In this document: positions 49,797 to 59,519 of the stretch, piece by piece | How the letters are laid out: each line of letters opens with the position of its first letter | How positions within the stretch are numbered: the stretch's first letter is position 1 | Source: a virus | IMG/VR virus record: IMGVR_UViG_3300005581_000014 | Span: 1 to 60,299 of that record | Reading direction: 5' to 3' (one strand) | Length of the DNA: 60,299 bases | The notes under the pieces: model-generated | The model's input: the letters and a program-made list of their open reading frames with translations, nothing else | Databases searched by the model: none | Told to the model about the DNA's origin: nothing | Position numbers and translations under genes: made by a program

Positions 49797-50267
49797 TTAG
49801 AGGGCTTTAGCGACCTTGTTCCAGTATACCTCGAGGTTGCGCTGTTTCGCATCATCGATAGGGACGCTAGCTCGCTTCCATGCGCCCGCACCGCCGTTCC
49901 AGATGAACGCGAGCTCCTTGTTGGTTGCATTGCGGCCAGTGGTTTTACTAATGTGTTTAGAGTAATAGGTTAGCACAATCTTCGCTACAGAACGAGCTTT
50001 TACTGGATCAAGCATCTCACGGTGTGTGAAGTGTGTGCTAGCGATGCGGTTAGCGTCGAGTACCATCGAGAGATGAATCTGGAGGATACCGAAGGCCTTA
50101 CCGTTATCTCCAACCGCGGCAGCATTGCCATTTGACTCGACTTTCGCCAGAGCAACGATCATTCTGTCAGTATCCTGAGCGCGAGCAAAGGAACCCACGG
50201 CGAGCATTGATCCAAGGAGCAGTAAAGTCTTGGTACGGTTGAGGATCATGCGCGTGCGTGTTTTCAT
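49797..50267 (-). CDS. Secreted lytic transglycosylase-like endolysin
   Basis: A 156-residue protein with an N-terminal signal sequence (MKTRTRMILNRTKTLLLLGS, then MLAVGSFARAQ; cleavage plausible after ARA). It is followed by a lysozyme-like SLT domain: DRMIVALAKVESNGNAAAVG with catalytic Glu44, DNGKAFGILQIH, then FIWNGGAGAW. It probably cleaves peptidoglycan in the periplasm at lysis, exported by the host Sec system or held as a signal-anchor enzyme. The ATG at 50267 is chosen to give the signal peptide. Small early-type genes surround it. Confidence 0.75.
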   Translation of the reverse strand: MKTRTRMILNRTKTLLLLGSMLAVGSFARAQDTDRMIVALAKVESNGNAAAVGDNGKAFGILQIHLSMVLDANRIASTHFTHREMLDPVKARSVAKIVLTYYSKHISKTTGRNATNKELAFIWNGGAGAWKRASVPIDDAKQRNLEVYWNKVAKAL

Positions 50268-50278
50268 GTTGCGTTTTA

Positions 50279-50473
50279 TTATTTCCAAAGAATTCCTGTC
50301 GCGCCTGAAGATTTAACTGCCAGCATCTCCTCAAGGTCGGACGGGGTACTCATAACCTTATCATTCAGTCGGCGAAGCCAAACGCCGAGCGGCTCGCCGA
50401 TTTTACCGTCATTTGCAGGAGCGAGCACTTGGGTATTATTCATTTTGATGGAAGTGAGTTGATTAGCTTTCAT
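50279..50473 (-). CDS. Small hypothetical protein
   Basis: 64 residues (MKANQLTSIKMNNTQVLAPA), soluble, with GVWLRRLNDKVMSTPSDLEE. An alternative ATG at 50443 would give 54 residues; no ribosome site distinguishes them. It ends 11 bases before the transglycosylase start. Function unknown. Confidence 0.4.
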   Translation of the reverse strand: MKANQLTSIKMNNTQVLAPANDGKIGEPLGVWLRRLNDKVMSTPSDLEEMLAVKSSGATGILWK

Positions 50474-51249: not shown

Positions 51250-53292
51250 TTATTTCGAGGTGGCTCTAAAAATAGTATCCCAACTTGTTCCGGGATCATT
51301 ATCGCGCAGATACTCAATCCGCTCGACCATCATCTCGTAGTATCCAGCCATGAAGTCCATACTAGCAGCAAGGTGCTTTGCCAGCCTGATTGCTTCATTC
51401 CATTCGCGAGTACGATATAGATCCAGAAAGCTATCATGGCTCACCGGATAGATATGAGTGCCTTTGTCAAAGACGGTGTAGATTCGCACGCCTTCTTTCT
51501 TACCTTTTACTGCGATGCAATCAAGCTCTAGCGTAGGATAGACATCCTTCACGCGCTCACGAGTAAGTGGTCCCAGAACGATCTTCACACCGTACGGTTT
51601 TGACTGTCCTTCTAGGCGTGATGCAAGATTGACATGATCGCCCAGGCAGGTGTAGTCAAATCGCTGCTCAGATCCCATATTGCCTACCACCACAGTTCCG
51701 GTGTTGATACCCAGACCCATACCAAAAGCCGGGACACCTTCCTGAGTGATCTCTGCATTAAAAGCCTTCAGACTTCTCATCATCTCCAGACCAGTTTCAA
51801 CCGCATGAATGGCATGAGAATTGTCATCGAGAGGAGCATTCCAGAATGCCATCTGAGCATCGCCGATGTACTTGTCGAGAGTACCTTTCTTCTCAATGAT
51901 TGACCTAGTCATTGCTGTCATGTAGCGATTCATGATCTGAGTCAGTCCCTGGACGTTCTTTCCGTAGTGCTCAGAGATTGCGGTAAACCCACGGACATCG
52001 GTGAACATGATGGAAAGCTCGCGTTCCTCACCTCCGAGTTTGAGTGCATCTGGATTCTTCTGTAACTGCGCAACCTGATCTGGCGATAGGTATGTCTCAA
52101 ACTGCTTTTTAATCTGCTGCTTTAACTTAAATTCCATCACGAATCGCATGAACAGCGCAGATCCCCAGCTTGCTGTCAACGCGATTATCAGCCATGTATA
52201 GTCGGCTAGCAATCCGAGGTGAAATAGGTAGAATCCTATACCGATGGGAATTGCAGCAAGTAGCACAAAGATCAGCCCGGCAAGTTTATAACTCAGATAG
52301 CAGATAGTCACTACTGCTATTGCGCAAATCAGCACACCTGCAGCAAGCTCATAAAGATCAAATTCCGCTGGCCGTTCCAAACGCGCCTCATCAATCAGCA
52401 TCTGCAATGCATGAAGATTGACCTCATAACCGTATGTAGTACCCAGAGGTGATGCTACAGTATTTGCCAGACCTTCTGCCGTCGGTGCAATAATAGCAAT
52501 ACGACCCTTTAGACTGCTCCAGTCTTTATCAGTGTAAGATACTGAAGAAAAGGTATACTTAAAGTTAAGCCAGACTCTGGCATTAGCATCAGTCTTAATT
52601 GGCGCAATACCTGCCACGCGCACTGCCGCAATACCAGCTTCTGTGACTTTTGCCTGATTACTCGCCTCACCGCCAAAGACGCGCAGCACCTCGAGTGGTA
52701 AAGTAGGATACTTCTCACCTTTGACTTGTATGATTAGCGGAAGGCGACGTACCACGCCATCAAGTTCAGGTGCTGTTAGCAGCATACCGACACCTGCTGC
52801 GGCTTTGCCAATTTCATCAATCGGCCCAATTGCAGCAGGATAGTCGAACAGCCAATCCTCTGCTGCTCCACCGATAGTAGCTAGGCCCCGAGGCACTGGA
52901 TATCCTTTGCCCTTTTGGGATGCAGACTGAGAAATGATTACTGCTGTTTTATTAAGCTGCTCTACGAACTGAACATCTCCGCCAAGCCGGTCAGGCTCTG
53001 CAAAGATGACGGGCAGAACTACTGCTGTTGCTCCTGCGTCTGCGGCGCGTTGTATACCGGCAGCAAGTACATCGCGTTTCCAGGGCCATTGCCCATTTGC
53101 TTCTAGAGCATTCTCGTCGATCTCAATAACCGCGATATTCTCGGATAGCTTCTTTTCTTGCGCTCGTTGGTAGTAATCTAGACCTTTTAGACGAAGTACT
53201 TCAATTGGGTATGGATCCAAGATTCGCAGAATGGCCGCGGCTGCAAGCACGCCAAATCCCACAGCAAGAGTCTTGAGCATATGTTTCTTCAT
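51250..53292 (-). CDS. CHASE2-domain class III nucleotidyl cyclase
   Basis: A 680-residue membrane protein. There is one N-terminal membrane segment (about 6-24), then an extracytoplasmic CHASE2 sensor (about 30-305; ENIAVIEIDENALEANGQWP), three membrane helices (about 315-385), a short linker and a class III cyclase domain (about 420-610). Catalytic residues are present: metal Asp432 (FTDVRGFT) and Asp478 (YIGDAQMAFW), adenine-selecting Lys474 and Asp552, transition-state Asn555 and Arg559 (NLASR). Lys/Asp predicts cAMP rather than cGMP. Last gene of the curli operon, 2 bases after FecR. A tail of about 70 residues follows the cyclase domain. Confidence 0.9.
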   Translation of the reverse strand: MKKHMLKTLAVGFGVLAAAAILRILDPYPIEVLRLKGLDYYQRAQEKKLSENIAVIEIDENALEANGQWPWKRDVLAAGIQRAADAGATAVVLPVIFAEPDRLGGDVQFVEQLNKTAVIISQSASQKGKGYPVPRGLATIGGAAEDWLFDYPAAIGPIDEIGKAAAGVGMLLTAPELDGVVRRLPLIIQVKGEKYPTLPLEVLRVFGGEASNQAKVTEAGIAAVRVAGIAPIKTDANARVWLNFKYTFSSVSYTDKDWSSLKGRIAIIAPTAEGLANTVASPLGTTYGYEVNLHALQMLIDEARLERPAEFDLYELAAGVLICAIAVVTICYLSYKLAGLIFVLLAAIPIGIGFYLFHLGLLADYTWLIIALTASWGSALFMRFVMEFKLKQQIKKQFETYLSPDQVAQLQKNPDALKLGGEERELSIMFTDVRGFTAISEHYGKNVQGLTQIMNRYMTAMTRSIIEKKGTLDKYIGDAQMAFWNAPLDDNSHAIHAVETGLEMMRSLKAFNAEITQEGVPAFGMGLGINTGTVVVGNMGSEQRFDYTCLGDHVNLASRLEGQSKPYGVKIVLGPLTRERVKDVYPTLELDCIAVKGKKEGVRIYTVFDKGTHIYPVSHDSFLDLYRTREWNEAIRLAKHLAASMDFMAGYYEMMVERIEYLRDNDPGTSWDTIFRATSK

Positions 53293-53294
53293 AA

Positions 53295-54458
53295 TTATTT
53301 CTTTTGTATGATCTTCACATTTAATTTATCACCGAAGTTGAGAGGATATGTCTTGGCTCCCTCACCGTTAGTGACTTCAACTGTAGCGCTGATATTTGCT
53401 TTAGTGCTATACCGAATGATATTTCCGCTACTATCGATATACAGCGTGGCGTTAACTCCATCAGTTGACCAGCCAGTATTTACTGTTGCAGACACTATCA
53501 TATTAGTAGGTGGCTCCACTGCTATAACTGAAACTGCTGGAGCTGCTGGAGCAATAGTCTTTGAAATTGCCTCAGCAACCGCTTGCATCACCTGTGGCTG
53601 TATAGAGCTTAGATCTAACTTAGTCTCGACGGCAGGTATATCTTCTGCTTTAGCCACTGGTTCATTATTTGCTGGCGTATCAATCTGAGAAACTGCAACC
53701 TTAGCATCTGCTTTCGCAGCAGATTTTTTTGGCTTATTATCTTCATTGTCGCTTGTGGATTGTGATTGTTTGTCTTTCTTCTGTTCTTTCACTGCCTGCG
53801 TGACTTGCTTAGGTGTCTCGACCATTAGCATATTGTTGATCTTAGACTCATCCTGAAAGTCTAGAATGATGGGAGGAGTGGGAGCGGTATTTGCCGAGGA
53901 TACGAATGTTGCCTGATATGCTTTAGTCATTAGCACAGTGCCGCTCATATTCGAGACCTCAATCTCTCCTACTATTGCTTTTTCGCCAGCGGCGTTAGGA
54001 ATTGATGGTAGAAGTACAATCAGACTCTTGCCATCTTCAGATACTGTCATTGAAAAGTCAGTGCCACGCACCGATACTTTTGCGGTAGGTGTCTGCACCT
54101 TGACGTTTTCACGGCTGTTCTTGGCGATTGCTCCAGAAGCATACCGCACAGTGCCAAATGCAGCTTTTATACCCAGACTACCTTTACCAGTCTTTGAGTC
54201 ATATACAAATTCATCAATTTTTAGCTTTGAGAATTCTGTAACCTGCATCCGGGTATTATCCTCGAATGTAATCGAGACACGAGACTTAAGCGTTTCCACT
54301 GAATCGTTCATCTCAACTTCTACATTGACTTTGCCCTCAATCTTATCTTTCCCACGAACAATCTGAGTAGGCCCAGTTACCTCTAGCATCTTTCCAATCG
54401 ACCCATACGCAGACGAAAAAGCCGCTAAGCTAATAGCAATAGCGGCTTTAATATTCAC
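53295..54458 (-). CDS. FecR-domain periplasmic protein
   Basis: A 387-residue protein with a signal peptide (MNIKAAIAISLAAFSSAYG) and a FecR domain (about 25-190): VTGPTQIVRGKDKIEGKV, TFEDNTRMQVTEFSKLKIDE, GTVRYASGAIAKNSRENVKV and QTPTAKVSVRGTDFSM. The second half is a Lys/Gln/Ser linker (about 225-260) and a C-terminal beta domain. Bacterial FecR-domain proteins of this type often pair with CHASE2 cyclases. It starts with GTG, 3 bases after the curlin-like stop, and ends 2 bases before the cyclase. Proposed to relay periplasmic or envelope state to CHASE2; inferred. Confidence 0.82.
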   Translation of the reverse strand: MNIKAAIAISLAAFSSAYGSIGKMLEVTGPTQIVRGKDKIEGKVNVEVEMNDSVETLKSRVSITFEDNTRMQVTEFSKLKIDEFVYDSKTGKGSLGIKAAFGTVRYASGAIAKNSRENVKVQTPTAKVSVRGTDFSMTVSEDGKSLIVLLPSIPNAAGEKAIVGEIEVSNMSGTVLMTKAYQATFVSSANTAPTPPIILDFQDESKINNMLMVETPKQVTQAVKEQKKDKQSQSTSDNEDNKPKKSAAKADAKVAVSQIDTPANNEPVAKAEDIPAVETKLDLSSIQPQVMQAVAEAISKTIAPAAPAVSVIAVEPPTNMIVSATVNTGWSTDGVNATLYIDSSGNIIRYSTKANISATVEVTNGEGAKTYPLNFGDKLNVKIIQKK

Positions 54459-54461
54459 GGA

Positions 54462-55274
54462 TTAAAGTGAAGGAGGAACGATTGAATTGGTGGTAGTGGC
54501 AGGACCTGCTGGGCCATTTGTTCCGGATGTAGTCATCACCGGAGCATAACCGGTCGTGGTCTGCACAATGCGCACCGTATTGGTTGATCCGGCCAGTGTG
54601 TAGTTGAACAGTTGCTTTTCGAGTCCGCCCTGATAGATTGTCAAGTCATTGGAAGATCCGGTAAGCACAACGGTCTGTTCATGGCCAGCCTTTGCAGCAG
54701 AACCCGCCGTGTTTCCGATTTGAGTTGATTTGATAGTATTGGAGTTACCAGTGACTTTGTAGTCCAGATAGTTGTATTTACCTGAACTAATTCCAAGACG
54801 GATGTCATTCGAGTTACCTTGAACGTCGAACAACAGGTCCGAATTGGTAAAGGTAGCCTTAGCTGTATCTGTGCTCGATGTGTGATCCACGGTAGTGTCT
54901 CCGTTGAGTAAGAACTTATTTGAGTTTCCATTCAGTAGTATATTTACATTATTGCTAGCACCAGAGAAGTAATACTGCTGGGCATTGCTATTGCCGGTAG
55001 CAACAGTAAGCAGCTTCAGGTTGTTTGCGCTAGCAATGGAAAACTTGGTGTCATTGCTGTCGCCAATCTGACGCATTTCAAACACGATATTATCTCCGGT
55101 GATGTCACTCGGAGTTTGTGAGGTCCCGACTTTATTGAGGCTTCCGACTTGGACTAAGGTGGTATTTCCGCCTGTAGTAACTTGATTTACATAGATCTGG
55201 TTCTGCGCATATGCTGCGGTGAGGAACAATCCGATCAGTGCAAATCCGATTATTAGCTTAATGAGAGTTTTCAT
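54462..55274 (-). CDS. Curlin-like secreted repeat protein
   Basis: 270 residues. The signal peptide (MKTLIKLIIGFALIGLFLTA-AYA) is followed by about eight loosely repeated 20-25-residue units with a G-[NDS]-S-N turn: VGSLNKVG, IGDSND, ATGNSN, LNGNSNKF, VQGNSNDI, VTGNSNTI, LTGSSNDL, LAGSTNTV. Such strand-turn-strand repeats are typical of curlin (CsgA/CsgB) beta-solenoids, although the Gln/Asn ladder is weaker than in E. coli CsgA. It ends in a Pro/Thr/Gly-rich tail. Encoded directly after CsgG, it is the likely export substrate. Confidence 0.72.
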   Translation of the reverse strand: MKTLIKLIIGFALIGLFLTAAYAQNQIYVNQVTTGGNTTLVQVGSLNKVGTSQTPSDITGDNIVFEMRQIGDSNDTKFSIASANNLKLLTVATGNSNAQQYYFSGASNNVNILLNGNSNKFLLNGDTTVDHTSSTDTAKATFTNSDLLFDVQGNSNDIRLGISSGKYNYLDYKVTGNSNTIKSTQIGNTAGSAAKAGHEQTVVLTGSSNDLTIYQGGLEKQLFNYTLAGSTNTVRIVQTTTGYAPVMTTSGTNGPAGPATTTNSIVPPSL

Positions 55275-55286
55275 AGTGCAATTATC

Positions 55287-56096
55287 TTAAGGATTTGTGG
55301 TTAGTGGTAGTGTCGTGACGAATTTCCATAATCCAGTCTTCGCCCCTTGATGTATGATCTCTATAACAGCCTGATCAATTGCGCTACGAACCGCGATAGT
55401 ATTCGGCTCATTAGCTGTCAGGCCCAATTCAGATTCTGCGGGCGTTGTACCGTGTTCATAGAACTTGAAAAGATTTCCAGAGACGCTCACACTTGTGATT
55501 GTTTTTGTAACTGCTACAGAAAGCAGTACTTCTCCAGTCTGAACCGAGACAAATCTCAAGGAGACTGTCACGACATCTTTTCGGTATTGTGTATTTCCGG
55601 ATATACCTAAGAGACTAGCTCCGGCACCTCCAGTCAAAATGTTAGTATCGTATCCGATAATCCCGCCCTCAGCAATGATACCGGCGAATAGCATCGGAGA
55701 AAGTTTTTCAGCATCTCTGCCCAGAAACGACTCGCGCGTCTGTGCAATAAGCTGCCGTTCCTTAATTAGATTGTCCAAGGATGTTCGCTCTAGCACCTGA
55801 AACCACCTACCTGATCCAGCAGTGCGCAGTGAGTCAATTAGCCAAGAATCTGCTCCTTGTGTGACCGCTGATGAGAATGAAGCATAAGCATCCTGAGTCT
55901 TGCGCTGACCTGTCTTATCTGCGAAACCGTAGATAGCAACAGTGATCCGGTTACCATCAATTGGTGGAACCCCGATCAATTGCTTCTCAAGCGGAGATAC
56001 TTGGCTGCGTGGCATCTCAAGAATACTCGGCGAGCGAGGTATTGAAGCGCAGCCAACTAAAGACAGCGCGAGTAGGCTCATGGCAATTACTTTCAT
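55287..56096 (-). CDS. csgG: CsgG-like curli secretion pore lipoprotein
   Basis: 269 residues. Lipoprotein signal MKVIAMSLLALSLVGC with lipobox LVGC (Cys16), then the CsgG family pattern: ITVAIYGFADKTGQRKTQD, WFQVLERTSLDNLIKERQLI, AGIIAEGGIIGYDTNILTGG, TQYRKDVVTVSLRFVSVQTG and EVLLSVAVTKTI. CsgG forms the nonameric outer-membrane channel of curli secretion. E. coli CsgG is about 277 residues. The start overlaps the CsgF-like stop as TGATG. No CsgE was found nearby. Confidence 0.9.
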   Translation of the reverse strand: MKVIAMSLLALSLVGCASIPRSPSILEMPRSQVSPLEKQLIGVPPIDGNRITVAIYGFADKTGQRKTQDAYASFSSAVTQGADSWLIDSLRTAGSGRWFQVLERTSLDNLIKERQLIAQTRESFLGRDAEKLSPMLFAGIIAEGGIIGYDTNILTGGAGASLLGISGNTQYRKDVVTVSLRFVSVQTGEVLLSVAVTKTITSVSVSGNLFKFYEHGTTPAESELGLTANEPNTIAVRSAIDQAVIEIIHQGAKTGLWKFVTTLPLTTNP

Positions 56097-56605
56097 CAGC
56101 TAGATGGAGGCGGCGATAGAGATCCTACCGGCACCTGAATTGAAGTAATGTTGCCGGTGGAAGGATCAGTAATGTATAGAGTGACAAAGTCACCCGCTCG
56201 ATTCCATGTTACTGTTGATCCACCTTGCAAGTTAATGACACCAAAAGTTGCACCAGATGCATTGAAGATCTGATCTGTTACCTGAGATGCAAGCTGCGAG
56301 TAAATACGCGCCTGCAGATTCACAATGAAGCTATTCAGAGGAGTATTCTGGCTTGCAAGCTTTAGATTTTCTGCCTCTGCTTTAGCAACATCTTTGATTG
56401 TTTGCTTGCGAGTGCGTGCTAAATTCTCCTGAGTAAATATATGCGAGGAGTAGCCAATTCCGCTAAATGCCGGCGACTTAAATGAATGTACCATATCCGA
56501 GGCCCGGCCACACGACTGCAATACACACAGGAATAGCAAAATTCCTACTAGTAATAGGAATCCAGTATCGGCGGCCTTATAGCTGTTTCGGCTGTGATTG
56601 TCCAT
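56096..56605 (-). CDS. csgF: CsgF-like curli accessory protein
   Basis: 169 residues. A hydrophobic N terminus ends in a possible lipobox (LCVLQSCG). SFKSPAFSGIGYSSH follows, matching the CsgF N-terminal F-x-x-P-x-F-G-G segment that plugs into the CsgG channel; then SFIVNLQARIYSQLASQVTD and VTLYITDPSTGNITSIQVPV, resembling the CsgF helix and final strand (VTDRKTGQTSTIQV). It lies directly before csgG, as in curli operons. The start lies inside the end of the upstream gene (29-base overlap). Confidence 0.75.
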   Translation of the reverse strand: MDNHSRNSYKAADTGFLLLVGILLFLCVLQSCGRASDMVHSFKSPAFSGIGYSSHIFTQENLARTRKQTIKDVAKAEAENLKLASQNTPLNSFIVNLQARIYSQLASQVTDQIFNASGATFGVINLQGGSTVTWNRAGDFVTLYITDPSTGNITSIQVPVGSLSPPPSS

Positions 56606-56915
56606 CGGTAGGAGGTAGATTAAATGGCGAAGTTGTTCCAGCAGGCCGTTCGGGGTTAGCTTTAAGCGGATTCTCTACACGTTTAACCTCGATAGCAGTA
56701 TTGATCTTCTGCTCGAGACGTATTAAATCGTTATCTAGCATTCTAATTCTATCGATTAGCTCAATCATTATTTTCTTCGCGTTCGAGAGCTCTACATTGA
56801 TATTCTCAGTTACAAATTTCCAGACAAAGTAAATAAAGTAGCCCATTCCACCAGCTGCCATAATCGGTAGGCCATACTGGTTGACCATCGTCTTGAATGT
56901 ATTGATCTCCTCCAT
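56577..56915 (-). CDS. Small membrane/coiled-coil protein B
   Basis: 112 residues: one membrane helix (YGLPIMAAGGMGYFIYFVWK), a coiled coil (ELSNAKKIMIELIDRIRMLD, NDLIRLEQKIN) and a polar Pro-rich tail. It resembles its upstream neighbour in layout (helix, then R-x-L-D/N-N-D-L-x-R). Holin-like or a curli accessory. The start is the ATG at 56915, one codon after a GTG; an AAGGA sequence about 10 bases upstream is one of the few Shine-Dalgarno-like sites here. Confidence 0.6.
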   Translation of the reverse strand: MEEINTFKTMVNQYGLPIMAAGGMGYFIYFVWKFVTENINVELSNAKKIMIELIDRIRMLDNDLIRLEQKINTAIEVKRVENPLKANPERPAGTTSPFNLPPTDGQSQPKQL

Positions 56916-56920
56916 CACGG

Positions 56921-57205
56921 TCAGTCCTTTCGAGCATCGGTCTTGCCATCAGTGCGCGATAGCCGCTCAAGATCGACGCGCAACCCAAATCGAGAAGAAA
57001 TTAGAGCATCGATCCGGACCAGATCGTTGTTCATTGTGCGCACGCGGTTATTCAGCATTCCTGCTAGACCGCTGATAGACTTTACATCAGAAACAACTCC
57101 TGCCAAAATATACTTAAGTAGGATAACAATGAAAACGCCGCCAACAGTCACGGCTGCAACTGAGAAGCCCAGATCCATGATTGATTTGAATGTATCTAGA
57201 TTCAT
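56921..57205 (-). CDS. Small membrane/coiled-coil protein A
   Basis: 94 residues: LGFSVAAVTVGGVFIVILLKYILAGVV forms one membrane helix (about 12-38), followed by a short coiled coil (GMLNNRVRTMNNDLVRIDAL) and a charged tail (LSRTDGKTDARKD). It overlaps the previous gene by ATGA. Paired with protein B; together they may be a two-component holin or inner-membrane partners of the curli apparatus. Confidence 0.6.
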   Translation of the reverse strand: MNLDTFKSIMDLGFSVAAVTVGGVFIVILLKYILAGVVSDVKSISGLAGMLNNRVRTMNNDLVRIDALISSRFGLRVDLERLSRTDGKTDARKD

Positions 57206-57462
57206 CCATTGACAATCTCCGAAATCATCTTCTCAAATTCTTCGACCTTCTTCACTCGGTTAGGCCATTTAATGTATTCCTTCTCAGGATTCTTCTTTAA
57301 ATTCTGCAGCAAAGGAAGGATCGCATCATATAGTTTGGCGAGCTTGTCCTCGTGTTTTGCAGCTTGCTTGTATGCCACATCAACTTGCTTCGTGGCATCA
57401 AGATCTTGCTCTGCTACTGCAGTGAATCCGAAGTCAAATAAGTCTTTCGGTGCAGCAGCCAT
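57202..57462 (-). CDS. Conserved small T4-type phage protein
   Basis: 86 residues: PKDLFDFGFTAVAEQDL, a helical middle, and NPEKEYIKWPNRVKKVEEFE. The KEYIKWPNRV block is familiar from many cyano- and pelagimyophage small proteins of unknown function. It starts 2 bases after the 52-residue gene's stop and overlaps the next gene by 4 bases. Confidence 0.65.
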   Translation of the reverse strand: MAAAPKDLFDFGFTAVAEQDLDATKQVDVAYKQAAKHEDKLAKLYDAILPLLQNLKKNPEKEYIKWPNRVKKVEEFEKMISEIVNG

Positions 57463-57464
57463 TT

Positions 57465-57623
57465 TTATCTATGCTTGACGAGTATCCAGACAATCATTCC
57501 AAGCCAAAATCCGCATATACCGCCACACGTCATTGCGAGGTACATATCTGTATTACACCAGATTCGATTACCAATCGAATCAAGAGCATACTTCCAATTC
57601 TTCTTTTCCTCAGGCGATTGCAT
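57465..57623 (-). CDS. 52-residue single-pass membrane protein
   Basis: A short gene starting at ATG 57623, overlapping the beta-helix gene's stop by one base (TAATG). MQSPEEKKNWKYALDSIGNR is followed by a Met/Cys/Gly/Trp-rich membrane segment (LAMTCGGICGFWLGMIVWIL) and VKHR. Coupling on both sides (2 bases to the next ATG) supports translation. Possible holin or accessory; no family recognised. Confidence 0.6.
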   Translation of the reverse strand: MQSPEEKKNWKYALDSIGNRIWCNTDMYLAMTCGGICGFWLGMIVWILVKHR

Positions 57624-58213
57624 TACTTGGTAGTGATAAACATAGTTGGATTGACTGGCTTAGCGACATTCCTAATTCCACGAGTCTGAGCAGCGCGGAA
57701 TACAAAGTATGGCCACCAGATAATCTTTGGAACACGAATAATCTGGACATTCGATTTTTCGATTACTGGATTAGCAGCATCCCATAGGCGAACCTTTATC
57801 GGAGAACCATTTGCACAGTAGACATTTCGGATTACCACATTGCGCGTGGGCGCTCGGCCAGTCCACCAGTAATTATCAAACTGGCCGATGTCAATGTCGC
57901 AATCCGCTCCGTGCCCATCGAACTCTACGTTTTCGATTAGCGCCCCATCAATAGATCCTTTAAGCGTGATTCCATTTTGACTTGGAATCAGCTTGGTATT
58001 CATAATAGTATAGTTTGATCCGCGCACTGCATCGATGCAGTCTTCCTTGCCGCCCTGAATGGTGCATCTATTGACCAGGATATTGGTGCAGTTTGAAAAC
58101 TTCAGAATGTCTGAGTAATCGAGCGGGCTAACCCCAATCTGAGGAATTGCTCGGCCCTCGACTACTGTGCCAATTGCTGCAACATGGGATTCGTAATTCT
58201 TATCAGCGGACAT
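57623..58213 (-). CDS. Right-handed beta-helix protein (C-terminal hydrophobic tail)
   Basis: 196 residues with pectate-lyase-like repeat rungs: YSDILKFSNCTNILVNRCTI, QGGKEDCIDAVRGSNYTIMN, NGITLKGSIDGALIENVEFD and RNVVIRNVYCANGSPIKVRL. The KEDCID segment resembles a conserved family in marine T4-like phages. The C-terminal segment (VPKIIWWPYFVFRAAQTRGI) is hydrophobic. It could be a virion-associated glycan-binding protein. Starts 3 bases after the preceding stop. Confidence 0.6.
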   Translation of the reverse strand: MSADKNYESHVAAIGTVVEGRAIPQIGVSPLDYSDILKFSNCTNILVNRCTIQGGKEDCIDAVRGSNYTIMNTKLIPSQNGITLKGSIDGALIENVEFDGHGADCDIDIGQFDNYWWTGRAPTRNVVIRNVYCANGSPIKVRLWDAANPVIEKSNVQIIRVPKIIWWPYFVFRAAQTRGIRNVAKPVNPTMFITTK

Positions 58214-58216
58214 ATA

Positions 58217-58471
58217 TTAGAAAGCAATAGGAACCATGCGGATGGTAGCGGTACTAAACATGCTTTCTGCTGGTAGTTTTCTGACAAATACCGTTTCGTA
58301 TGAACGAAGGGTAAAACTACCAGTAGTAACTGCTTCAGCATCTTTTACAAGAACCGAAACATCCGAAGCAGTGTTATTGTATACTCTGATGAGAGTGCTT
58401 CCGTTGAAATTATTACCGCCAGTGCCGACAGCAACTTCTTGGCCTAGTACTTTTAGAATTGGTGATACCAT
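58217..58471 (-). CDS. Small virion-type protein
   Basis: 84 residues (MVSPILKVLGQEVAVGTGGN), beta-rich, with STLIRVYNNTASDVSVLVKD and LRSYETVFVRKLP. This small type is common among marine myophage structural proteins. The start is the ATG at 58471, 8 bases after a perfect late promoter; a longer frame from 58495 would begin upstream of the promoter and is rejected. First gene of the operon that ends in the cyclase. Confidence 0.65.
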   Translation of the reverse strand: MVSPILKVLGQEVAVGTGGNNFNGSTLIRVYNNTASDVSVLVKDAEAVTTGSFTLRSYETVFVRKLPAESMFSTATIRMVPIAF

Positions 58472-58479
58472 AGTATTGC

Positions 58480-58487
58480 TATTTATA
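58480..58487 (-). promoter_or_regulatory. T4-type late promoter of the curli/cyclase operon
   Basis: A perfect minus-strand TATAAATA inside an 18-base perfect palindrome (ATTGCTAT-TT-ATAGCAAT, 58475-58492). It drives eleven closely spaced genes down to 51250, and no strong terminator was seen inside. Confidence 0.78.
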
Positions 58488-58514: not shown

Positions 58515-58522
58515 TATAAATA
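58515..58522 (+). promoter_or_regulatory. T4-type late promoter of the coiled-coil lipoprotein gene
   Basis: A perfect plus-strand TATAAATA, 7 bases before ATG 58530, back-to-back with the curli-operon promoter 27 bases away. Confidence 0.8.
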
Positions 58523-58529
58523 GGAACAA

Positions 58530-59519
58530 ATGAAGCGATTGCTTATAGTATTACCTATGCTGGCGCTGCTTACAGGATGTCAAATGATGATGGGCCTGGG
58601 TAGCAAGATAGGTAGTCTGGGCGACAGATTGAACAATAAAGGCGGGGATACCTCGGGCACAGTAGCAGGTGCTACAGCTACTGCTGGCGCTGTTGATAGG
58701 ATGACAGAAATTGCTCGTCGTGAGTCAGATGCACGCAAAGCGCTTGAGGCACAGTATGAAAAGTTTCGCCAAGAACTTGCTGCAGCATATGCAAATCGTG
58801 AGAAGGTGGATAACGAGAACTTTGACAAGATCTCTGAGATCAACTATGGTATTATGGTTGCAACTGAGGAAGTCGTTGGGCTCGACAAACGCGTGCTGAT
58901 TGCAAATCTGAAGTCTAAGGAAAATGCAGAAATGCTCATGCCCGTGCCGGAGGATAGAAAGAAAGCAATTGCTGCTGACATCGATGCTGCCGCAAAAAAG
59001 GAAGCAGCTGAAATCGCTAAGATTTACGAGACACGCGCCAAGGAAGCTCAGGCTGCAGCTAAACGCTATGAGGAAGCTGATGCTTCAGTCAAAAAGAAAG
59101 AAGCTGAGAAATCAAAGCTGCGCAACGATCAGGCTATCGCGCTCAATAAACTTCAGGAAGAACAGGCTGTCGTGCGCGAGCGTATGCTCAAGGAAGCTCG
59201 GGATGCTGTTGAGATCGCAAAGGAAAAGCAACGTCTAGAGATGGTCGGATGGATCGTCAAGTCGTTACTTGCAGTAGGAGTTTTGCTCTTGCTCGTGGGC
59301 TTCTTAATGAAGTCACCAACATTCATTATTTCTGGTATTTCAATGCTCGGACTGTCTTATGTAGCTGCTACTATCCCATTCTGGGTTGTTGCCACAGTAA
59401 TGGGATTGGGAGTACTTGCGATGGTGTTGCTTGATCCAAAAGGCCGCCCGCATTTTGCCAAGAAAAAGGCGGAAGCGCCACCATTGGCACCTCCGCCTAC
59501 AACTTTACCATCTGCGTAG
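58530..59519 (+). CDS. Coiled-coil lipoprotein with C-terminal membrane helices (spanin-like)
   Basis: 329 residues. Lipoprotein signal MKRLLIVLPMLALLTGC (Cys17), Gly/Thr-rich linker, long charged coiled coil (about 55-235; RRESDARKALEAQYEKFRQE ... KLQEEQAVVRERMLKEARDA), then two or three membrane helices (about 240-310; WIVKSLLAVGVLLLLVGFLM, ATIPFWVVATVMGLGVLAMV) and a Pro-rich tail. An outer-membrane lipid anchor plus an inner-membrane anchor is the layout of unimolecular spanins, which fuse the membranes at lysis, though multiple helices are unusual. Late-expressed from its own promoter. Alternative: envelope-spanning partner of the curli system. Confidence 0.55.
   Translation: MKRLLIVLPMLALLTGCQMMMGLGSKIGSLGDRLNNKGGDTSGTVAGATATAGAVDRMTEIARRESDARKALEAQYEKFRQELAAAYANREKVDNENFDKISEINYGIMVATEEVVGLDKRVLIANLKSKENAEMLMPVPEDRKKAIAADIDAAAKKEAAEIAKIYETRAKEAQAAAKRYEEADASVKKKEAEKSKLRNDQAIALNKLQEEQAVVRERMLKEARDAVEIAKEKQRLEMVGWIVKSLLAVGVLLLLVGFLMKSPTFIISGISMLGLSYVAATIPFWVVATVMGLGVLAMVLLDPKGRPHFAKKKAEAPPLAPPPTTLPSA

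Follow-up and report, generated by a model that had tools for sequence, protein, structure and literature searches.

Curli-type secretion genes in phages were first seen in pelagimyophages, in the form of CsgF and CsgG (PMC7029224, 2020). A type VIII curli cluster that also holds FecR, a 'histidine kinase' and an adenylate cyclase was later reported in pelagiphages, with the histidine kinase placed before CsgF in a statement made for podoviruses (PMC9599517, 2022), and a lysis pore was proposed for phage Melnitz on a structural and synteny argument (PMC9004378). In the excerpted text of these accounts, the function of phage curli is called unclear or is a matter of speculation. In bacteria, excerpts describe a LysM-FecR protein encoded beside a CHASE2 histidine kinase in the BiofilmReg (biofilm) operon of Burkholderia (PMC5192318), and the Sinorhizobium CHASE2 cyclases CyaD1, CyaD2 and CyaK, which act with an outer-membrane protein (PMC13001267). 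Our literature search found no publication combining phage, CsgG, FecR and CHASE2, and three that combine FecR with CHASE2. Here we describe a cluster of this kind in the window, which is the whole of a 60,299-base IMG/VR virus record (IMGVR_UViG_3300005581_000014). The phage is a T4-like virus of aquatic bacteria, and its baseplate wedge protein is closest to that of Methylophilales phage Melnitz, followed by pelagiphages Mosig and HTVC008M and by cyanophages. The tRNAs of the window gave no pointer to a host, and the locus has a guanine plus cytosine (GC) content of 45%.

Curli genes joined to FecR and a cyclase are a real feature of phage genomes, and this gene content is already in print. 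The preliminary description of the window had thought the coupling undescribed, which is incorrect, since PMC9599517 already reports it in pelagiphages, and HTVC008M and Melnitz carry a syntenic cluster. What is added here is evidence that FecR and the cyclase form one signalling unit, and a hint of FecR as a possible connection to the fibre. Our preferred reading, to which we give a probability of roughly 0.4, is that the cluster encodes a late, reduced curli export system, coupled by FecR to an envelope-sensing CHASE2 cyclase that signals as cyclic AMP (cAMP). Late in infection the phage would install this reduced system, with CsgG and CsgF as its outer-membrane export pore and the curlin-like beta-solenoid as its cargo. 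FecR would be the exported coupler, with an N-terminal signalling domain that engages the periplasmic CHASE2 domain of the cyclase, and with a flexible linker and a curlin-like C-terminal strand that join this pore or fibre, or compete for it. Through the cyclase, the assembly state of the pore or fibre would be turned into a cytosolic cAMP signal. FecR and the cyclase would have been acquired as one bacterial signalling pair and then joined to the type VIII secretion system (T8SS) genes. The cluster and its five central genes are as follows (aa, amino acids).

58471 to 51250, minus strand: the cluster, eleven open reading frames (ORFs), g1 to g11
56096..56605, minus strand: g7, CsgF-like protein, 169 aa (PF10614, E 9.4e-17, 61.8 bits)
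55287..56096, minus strand: g8, CsgG, 269 aa (PF03783, E 2.4e-50, 171.2 bits)
54462..55274, minus strand: g9, curlin-like protein, 270 aa, a predicted beta-solenoid (homology and model)
53295..54458, minus strand: g10, FecR-domain protein predicted to be exported, 387 aa (PF04773, E 1.6e-10, 41.7 bits; model; tail motif)
51250..53292, minus strand: g11, CHASE2 plus class III nucleotide cyclase, 680 aa (CHASE2, PF05226, E 2.2e-40, 139.3 bits; Guanylate_cyc, PF00211, E 3.2e-20, 73.0 bits)

Close packing of eleven genes was borne out: all eleven ORFs exist on the minus strand, with intergenic spacings from g1 to g11 of 3, -1, 2, -4, 2, -29, -1, 12, 3 and 2 nucleotides (nt). Profile searches upheld the earlier assignments of CsgF, CsgG, FecR and CHASE2 plus cyclase, all above the Pfam curated cut-offs, and the lipoprotein cysteine C16 of g8 is kept in the three CsgG sequences aligned. 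PHROGs matches for the cluster were mostly to families of unknown function, and the few named ones all had E > 0.04.

Phage curli clusters are widespread; in one IMG/VR scan, tblastn confirmed 523 stretches. The viral loci compared here were the best 80 of 523 and the best 80 of 347 stretches, and hence are biased to near relatives. In total, 135 sequences (132 IMG/VR loci, two cultured phages and the window) gave 69 groups at 95% CsgG identity, and groups were left out of a count where the contig ended too soon. The synteny survey that had been proposed with the preliminary description included 50 dereplicated groups with more than 5.5 kb downstream of CsgG: all 50 have FecR and curlin, and 48 have the cyclase. 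CsgF was found in all 63 groups with more than 1.5 kb upstream. Therefore, the five genes CsgF-CsgG-curlin-FecR-cyclase form the core, which is near universal in this sample; the eleven-gene unit first described holds for the window, but g1 to g4 are confined to one lineage. Of 50,697 phage records, 6 had a match covering at least 80% of the cyclase, all of the HTVC008M or Melnitz kinds. A scan of bacterial contigs gave 7 loci at 45-50% identity, in bins titled Rhodobacteraceae, Pelagibacter, Pirellulales and Flavobacteriaceae; these are probably phage contigs within metagenome-assembled genomes (MAGs).

The phage cyclase was also searched against 299 genomes, and 32 bacterial regions around the matches were then read. 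These regions were hand-picked, mostly from the top of the match list with some from lower down, and two hits in genome G001 (L181 and one unlisted) were excluded as likely phage contigs. A FecR ORF directly adjoins the cyclase in 9 of the 32 regions, with gaps of 2-140 nt, and lies within 3.3 kb in 2 more, while none of the 32 contains CsgG, CsgF or curlin. Four of the bacterial partner proteins were scanned: in two, of 1,639 and 1,773 aa, FecR is combined with Ig, cadherin or laminin-G domains and an RTX-type C-terminus; a third, of 1,229 aa, has FecR with TPR repeats, and the fourth, of 502 aa, has FecR alone. In a cyclase tree of 48 rows, the 14 phage cyclases form one clade (100/100), and one side of a 100/100 branch holds the phage cyclases together with all 9 FecR-paired rows. 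FecR-paired cyclases account for 9 of 15 unselected bacterial rows on the phage side of this branch and 0 of 17 on the other (one-sided p 1.8e-4); L178 and L179, which had been picked for their FecR, are in the tree and not in these counts, and L180, with its cyclase in two pieces, is not in the tree. At the 30 strongest CHASE2 loci, FecR neighbours were seen at 4 (4 of 33 neighbour proteins by Pfam), which is a lower bound because the flanks were 1.5 kb, and such flanks also missed the FecR of giant neighbours. We regard the sequence data as evidence that FecR and the cyclase form one signalling unit, a bacterial pair. A bacterial curli cluster as the direct source of the phage genes was rejected, because the 7 bin loci are taken for phage and the 32 bacterial cyclase regions are free of CsgG, CsgF and curlin.

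The model of g10 (pLDDT 71.9, pTM 0.50) begins with a signal-like helix (residues 2-15), followed by a confident FecR beta domain (about 22-200); a disordered linker connects this to a second beta domain at the C-terminus, and there is no further membrane helix. The best PDB match of its head is the PupR cell-surface signalling domain (Z 15.2, 137 residues, 2.9 A); a weaker match (Z 7.5) is to the 'cell surface anchoring domain' 5ix9, which we take to be a domain of an RTX adhesin. The FecR domain was matched by 44 of 44 aligned phage members, and no anti-sigma or other regulator family was matched among them. On this basis phage FecR is predicted to be an exported two-domain protein without an anti-sigma part. 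In the reading given in the excerpted PMC9599517, FecR would be an iron-citrate-type anti-sigma regulator, and the cyclase would act via a CRP/CsgD-like route to control curli. The match in all 44 members agrees with such a regulator, but it is the FecR domain alone that matches, the modelled signal helix stands straight before that domain with no further membrane helix, and a domain binding cyclic nucleotide monophosphates (cNMP) is absent from 40 of 41 SAR11-family genomes. We consider this route, for which no search aimed at CsgD was made, highly improbable as a whole, and FecR as an iron-citrate regulator was rejected on the architecture, in which the signal helix runs straight into the FecR domain and no anti-sigma family is present.

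Phage FecR proteins share a C-terminal strand motif, consisting of terminal alternating hydrophobic residues plus Gln, with many of the phage curlins. After proteins cut by a locus end had been dropped, the motif, which we defined only after having seen it, was present in 59 of 61 phage FecR proteins, in 37 of 67 first curlins and in 20 of 27 second curlins. In comparison, it was present in 2 of 67 CsgF, 1 of 68 CsgG, 1 of 52 cyclases and 4 of 618 other ORFs. None of 9 inspected FecR proteins near bacterial cyclases has it, a count in which the L178 protein (162 aa) may be incomplete and from which L234, L241 and L242 were left out. This distribution hints at FecR as a possible link to the fibre. 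In a more specific form of our reading, possible but somewhat doubtful in our estimate, FecR would be a chimeric coupler whose head docks on CHASE2 and whose curlin-like tail enters the fibre or pore, so that the phage reads its own amyloid or pore assembly as cAMP. If this is true, such wiring of a sensor to an amyloid secretion system would amount to an envelope checkpoint of a new kind, with the cAMP receptor, too, supplied by the phage in one lineage. The pairing of FecR with cyclases in bacteria and the curlin-like end of FecR both favour the earlier proposal that the cyclase reports envelope state, which is still something that we infer.

Catalytic residues are present in the window cyclase, where D432, K474, D478 and R559 are found, and are invariant in 53 of 53 phage cyclases. 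We take D432 and D478 to be the metal aspartates, K474 to contact adenine and R559 to act on the transition state. The cyclase domain has 32 invariant columns of 181, and the CHASE2 part is retained in all 53 of these full-length cyclases, with 27 invariant columns of 274. As a separate observation, the cyclase gene of a 297 kb contig (L094:12803-15670) is in two pieces of 591 and 101 aa, and the ORF between them is of the homing-endonuclease type (T5orf172 at 20.0 bits, cut-off 20; DUF723).

No cNMP-binding domain was matched in HTVC008M or Melnitz, and it was absent in 40 of 41 SAR11-family genomes, a sample defined as the family of a MAG titled Candidatus Pelagibacter. Matches to cNMP-binding domains, and to class III cyclases, occurred in that MAG alone, which has 1.6 Mb and is possibly contaminated. 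Because the cNMP-binding matches are confined to this one MAG, CRP-type use of cAMP is not evident from the sequences of the sample. Among 42 longer curli-bearing viral contigs, 2 had a cNMP-binding match above cut-off. A related phage lineage encodes a 218 aa cNMP-binding protein with an apparent membrane helix in 13 contigs (L143:1396-2052; L244-L256), and the cassette GEGALVSxxPRNAS is conserved in 13 of 13. Five of these 13 contigs also bear CsgG, about 17-20 kb off, and in four of those five, which are in the survey, g5/g6 are absent from the DNA covered. Kept catalytic residues together with no obvious cAMP receptor in HTVC008M, Melnitz and the 40 SAR11-family genomes would also suit a cyclase that acts directly on the host, shifting its physiology during takeover by cAMP or by consumption of ATP, with the curli genes serving a separate function in the same late operon. 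We hold this to be very unlikely, as it does not account for the constant linkage of the cyclase with FecR and curlin or for the retained CHASE2 part.

The curlin-like substrate of the preliminary description is backed by relatives, since 19 of 44 aligned members of the g9 family match Curlin_rpt (PF07012) at E up to 0.05, and by the AlphaFold model, a predicted all-beta solenoid (pLDDT 79.7, pTM 0.75), but g9 of the window itself matched no Pfam family. Foldseek returned no PDB match for this model under E 0.001. Its VIA match to SufD-type beta-helices (Z 17.9) indicates a solenoid and nothing more, and curlin or amyloid structures were not among the VIA matches listed, which excludes nothing. 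There is one curlin in the window cluster, and 20 of 35 groups with longer flanks have at least two curlin ORFs. CsgF, CsgG and this predicted solenoid, in conserved order, also fit surface amyloid as the end product, as proposed in the excerpted PMC7029224 and PMC9599517. Fibres would then aggregate or coat the infected cells, giving sibling capture or protection from superinfection, and FecR and the cyclase would be ordinary regulators with no physical coupling. We think this unlikely: it leaves the constant FecR-cyclase pair unexplained, and the excerpted PMC9004378 reports no clumping of Melnitz cells in cytograms or electron micrographs.

Several observations weigh against our preferred reading as well, in which FecR couples curli export to the cyclase. 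The report on Melnitz cells just cited is one, as are the missing Pfam match of g9 and the scarcity of cNMP-binding domains in the cultured phages and the SAR11-family sample. The after-the-fact definition of the tail motif is another, and a profile comparison of the FecR tail with curlin was weak (E 0.0017, probability 15%; controls E 0.19, 0.81 and 0.92). In the cyclase tree, FecR-paired L179 lies on the other side of the branch, the root is by midpoint only, and the tree does not fix the exact sister of the phage clade. N555, presumably the transition-state Asn, is present in the window and in 31 of 53 relatives and is Ser in 22 of 53. Because N555 and position 548 (Thr 26, Asp 23, Ser 4 among the 53) vary, cyclase activity may differ between phage lineages. 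Finally, a Sinorhizobium FecR-domain protein under cAMP control is dispensable for signal perception, according to the excerpted text of PMC5498481.

The timing of the cluster was approached through the following element.

58480-58487, minus strand: T4-type late promoter motif TATAAATA of the operon (motif search, and enrichment near cluster starts in relatives)

The window holds 8 copies of TATAAATA against 3.14 expected, a number reached in 3 of 100 shuffles. Of 67 dereplicated loci, 12 carry the motif in the interval -80..+30 around the first cluster gene to be recognised, compared with a mean of 0.51 for random positions (0 of 2000 draws reached 12); the other 55 of 67 are without it at the cluster start. 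The first ORF as originally listed, from 58495, could not be translated off the operon promoter. Because TATAAATA falls inside that ORF, the start of g1 was moved to the ATG at 58471, 8 nt past the motif, which yields 84 aa, the median length of its homologues. Scans for sigma-70 promoters (12 against 13.9) and for terminators (9 against 5.4, sd 2.3) were near chance. Late expression, as claimed earlier, is likely in the window phage on the strength of the promoter motif, which has statistical support. A second TATAAATA, on the plus strand and pointing away from the operon copy, precedes the ATG of the ORF 58515-59519 (plus strand) by 7 nt; this ORF encodes a lipoprotein-like coiled-coil protein of 329 aa with no function assigned.

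A late-type promoter would also agree with a role in lysis. In the proposal made for Melnitz, CsgG and CsgF would contribute to lysis timing as a gated secretin or a pinholin-like pore, for which the excerpted PMC9004378 gives its structural and synteny argument. The gate protein CsgE was not found in any of 11 related records, the window record not being among those searched, and this is in keeping with such a pore. The curlin, FecR and cyclase genes, kept in 48-50 of 50 loci, would have no role in it. Pinholins act in the inner membrane, but CsgG is located in the outer membrane. We therefore judge a lysis-timing pore quite unlikely, and prefer an export pore coupled to the cyclase. About 1 kb downstream of the cyclase end, an exported-looking SLT-type transglycosylase is encoded at 49797-50288 on the minus strand (PF01464, 28.0 bits); it is a candidate maker of peptidoglycan gaps for a pore, or an endolysin.

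Upstream of CsgF, the cluster of the window has six further genes.

58217..58471, minus strand: g1, 84 aa, function unassigned (phrog_19805), lineage-specific
57623..58213, minus strand: g2, 196 aa, beta-helix-like (Pfam Beta_helix 25.4 bits, just under the 25.9 cut-off), lineage-specific
57465..57623, minus strand: g3, 52 aa, one apparent membrane helix (by inspection), lineage-specific
57202..57462, minus strand: g4, 86 aa, weak match to phrog_2727, lineage-specific
56921..57205, minus strand: g5, 94 aa, membrane helix and coil (phrog_18771)
56577..56918, minus strand: g6, 113 aa, relative of g5 (phrog_18771), membrane helix and coil

The three small membrane proteins of the preliminary description are g3, g5 and g6, each with a membrane helix evident on inspection of its sequence. 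Upstream, 6 of 63 dereplicated groups have genes of the g1-g4 set, and g1 is in 5 of these 6. Among the phage records, g5 occurred only in the same 6 as the cyclase, and the g5-type rows of the g5/g6 alignment end in GKxDAR[RK]D. The g5/g6 genes stand ahead of CsgF in some loci and past the cyclase, on the opposite strand, in many others: in 35 groups with longer flanks they were upstream in 8, downstream in 18 and absent from the covered DNA in 9. None of 34 aligned g5/g6 members matched a histidine kinase family, and HATPase_c was above cut-off in 0 of 42 curli-bearing viral records, the one sub-threshold match being in a 736 aa frame of the L091 contig (E 8e-4, 15.1 bits). A histidine kinase ahead of CsgF is not supported by these counts. 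The 'histidine kinase' of PMC9599517 may correspond to g5/g6-type genes; the sequences of that paper themselves lie outside the comparison.

Taken together, our results argue against two published labels, that of an iron-dependent regulator and that of a histidine kinase upstream of CsgF. With FecR paired to the cyclase, with the tail of FecR and with a cAMP receptor missing, the function of phage curli becomes open to specific tests. Compared with the clusters in the excerpts of PMC9599517, the window shows an identical order of CsgF, CsgG, a curlin-like protein, FecR and adenylate cyclase, but with one curlin, where some of those clusters have a second, with the additional genes g1-g4, and with small membrane proteins without a kinase domain in the 'histidine kinase' position; the phage is probably from another host, given its locus GC of 45%. 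In HTVC008M and Melnitz, g5, g6, CsgF, CsgG, curlin, FecR and cyclase are syntenic with the window, while a second curlin stands between FecR and the cyclase, and identity in cyclase and CsgG is 41-47%. Bacterial curli systems (csgBAC/csgDEFG) share the CsgG pore, CsgF and, probably, the curlin type of cargo, to which the phage side adds FecR and the cyclase, with no CsgE match in the 11 related records. An exported FecR protein gene also adjoins a CHASE2 sensor gene in the Burkholderia BiofilmReg operon, the output of which is a kinase and not a cyclase, and for which the excerpted text describes no curli genes (PMC5192318). CyaD1, CyaD2 and CyaK of Sinorhizobium likewise combine CHASE2 with a class III cyclase and receive their signal via an outer-membrane protein, but, in the excerpted account, their receptor Clr is known and they are not in a curli cluster (PMC13001267). 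The modelled head of phage FecR has the fold of the PupR/FecR cell-surface signalling domains (PDB 6ovk, 4m0h; Z 14-15), and the phage protein differs from those signalling proteins in showing neither a cytoplasmic anti-sigma part nor an inner-membrane helix before the domain.

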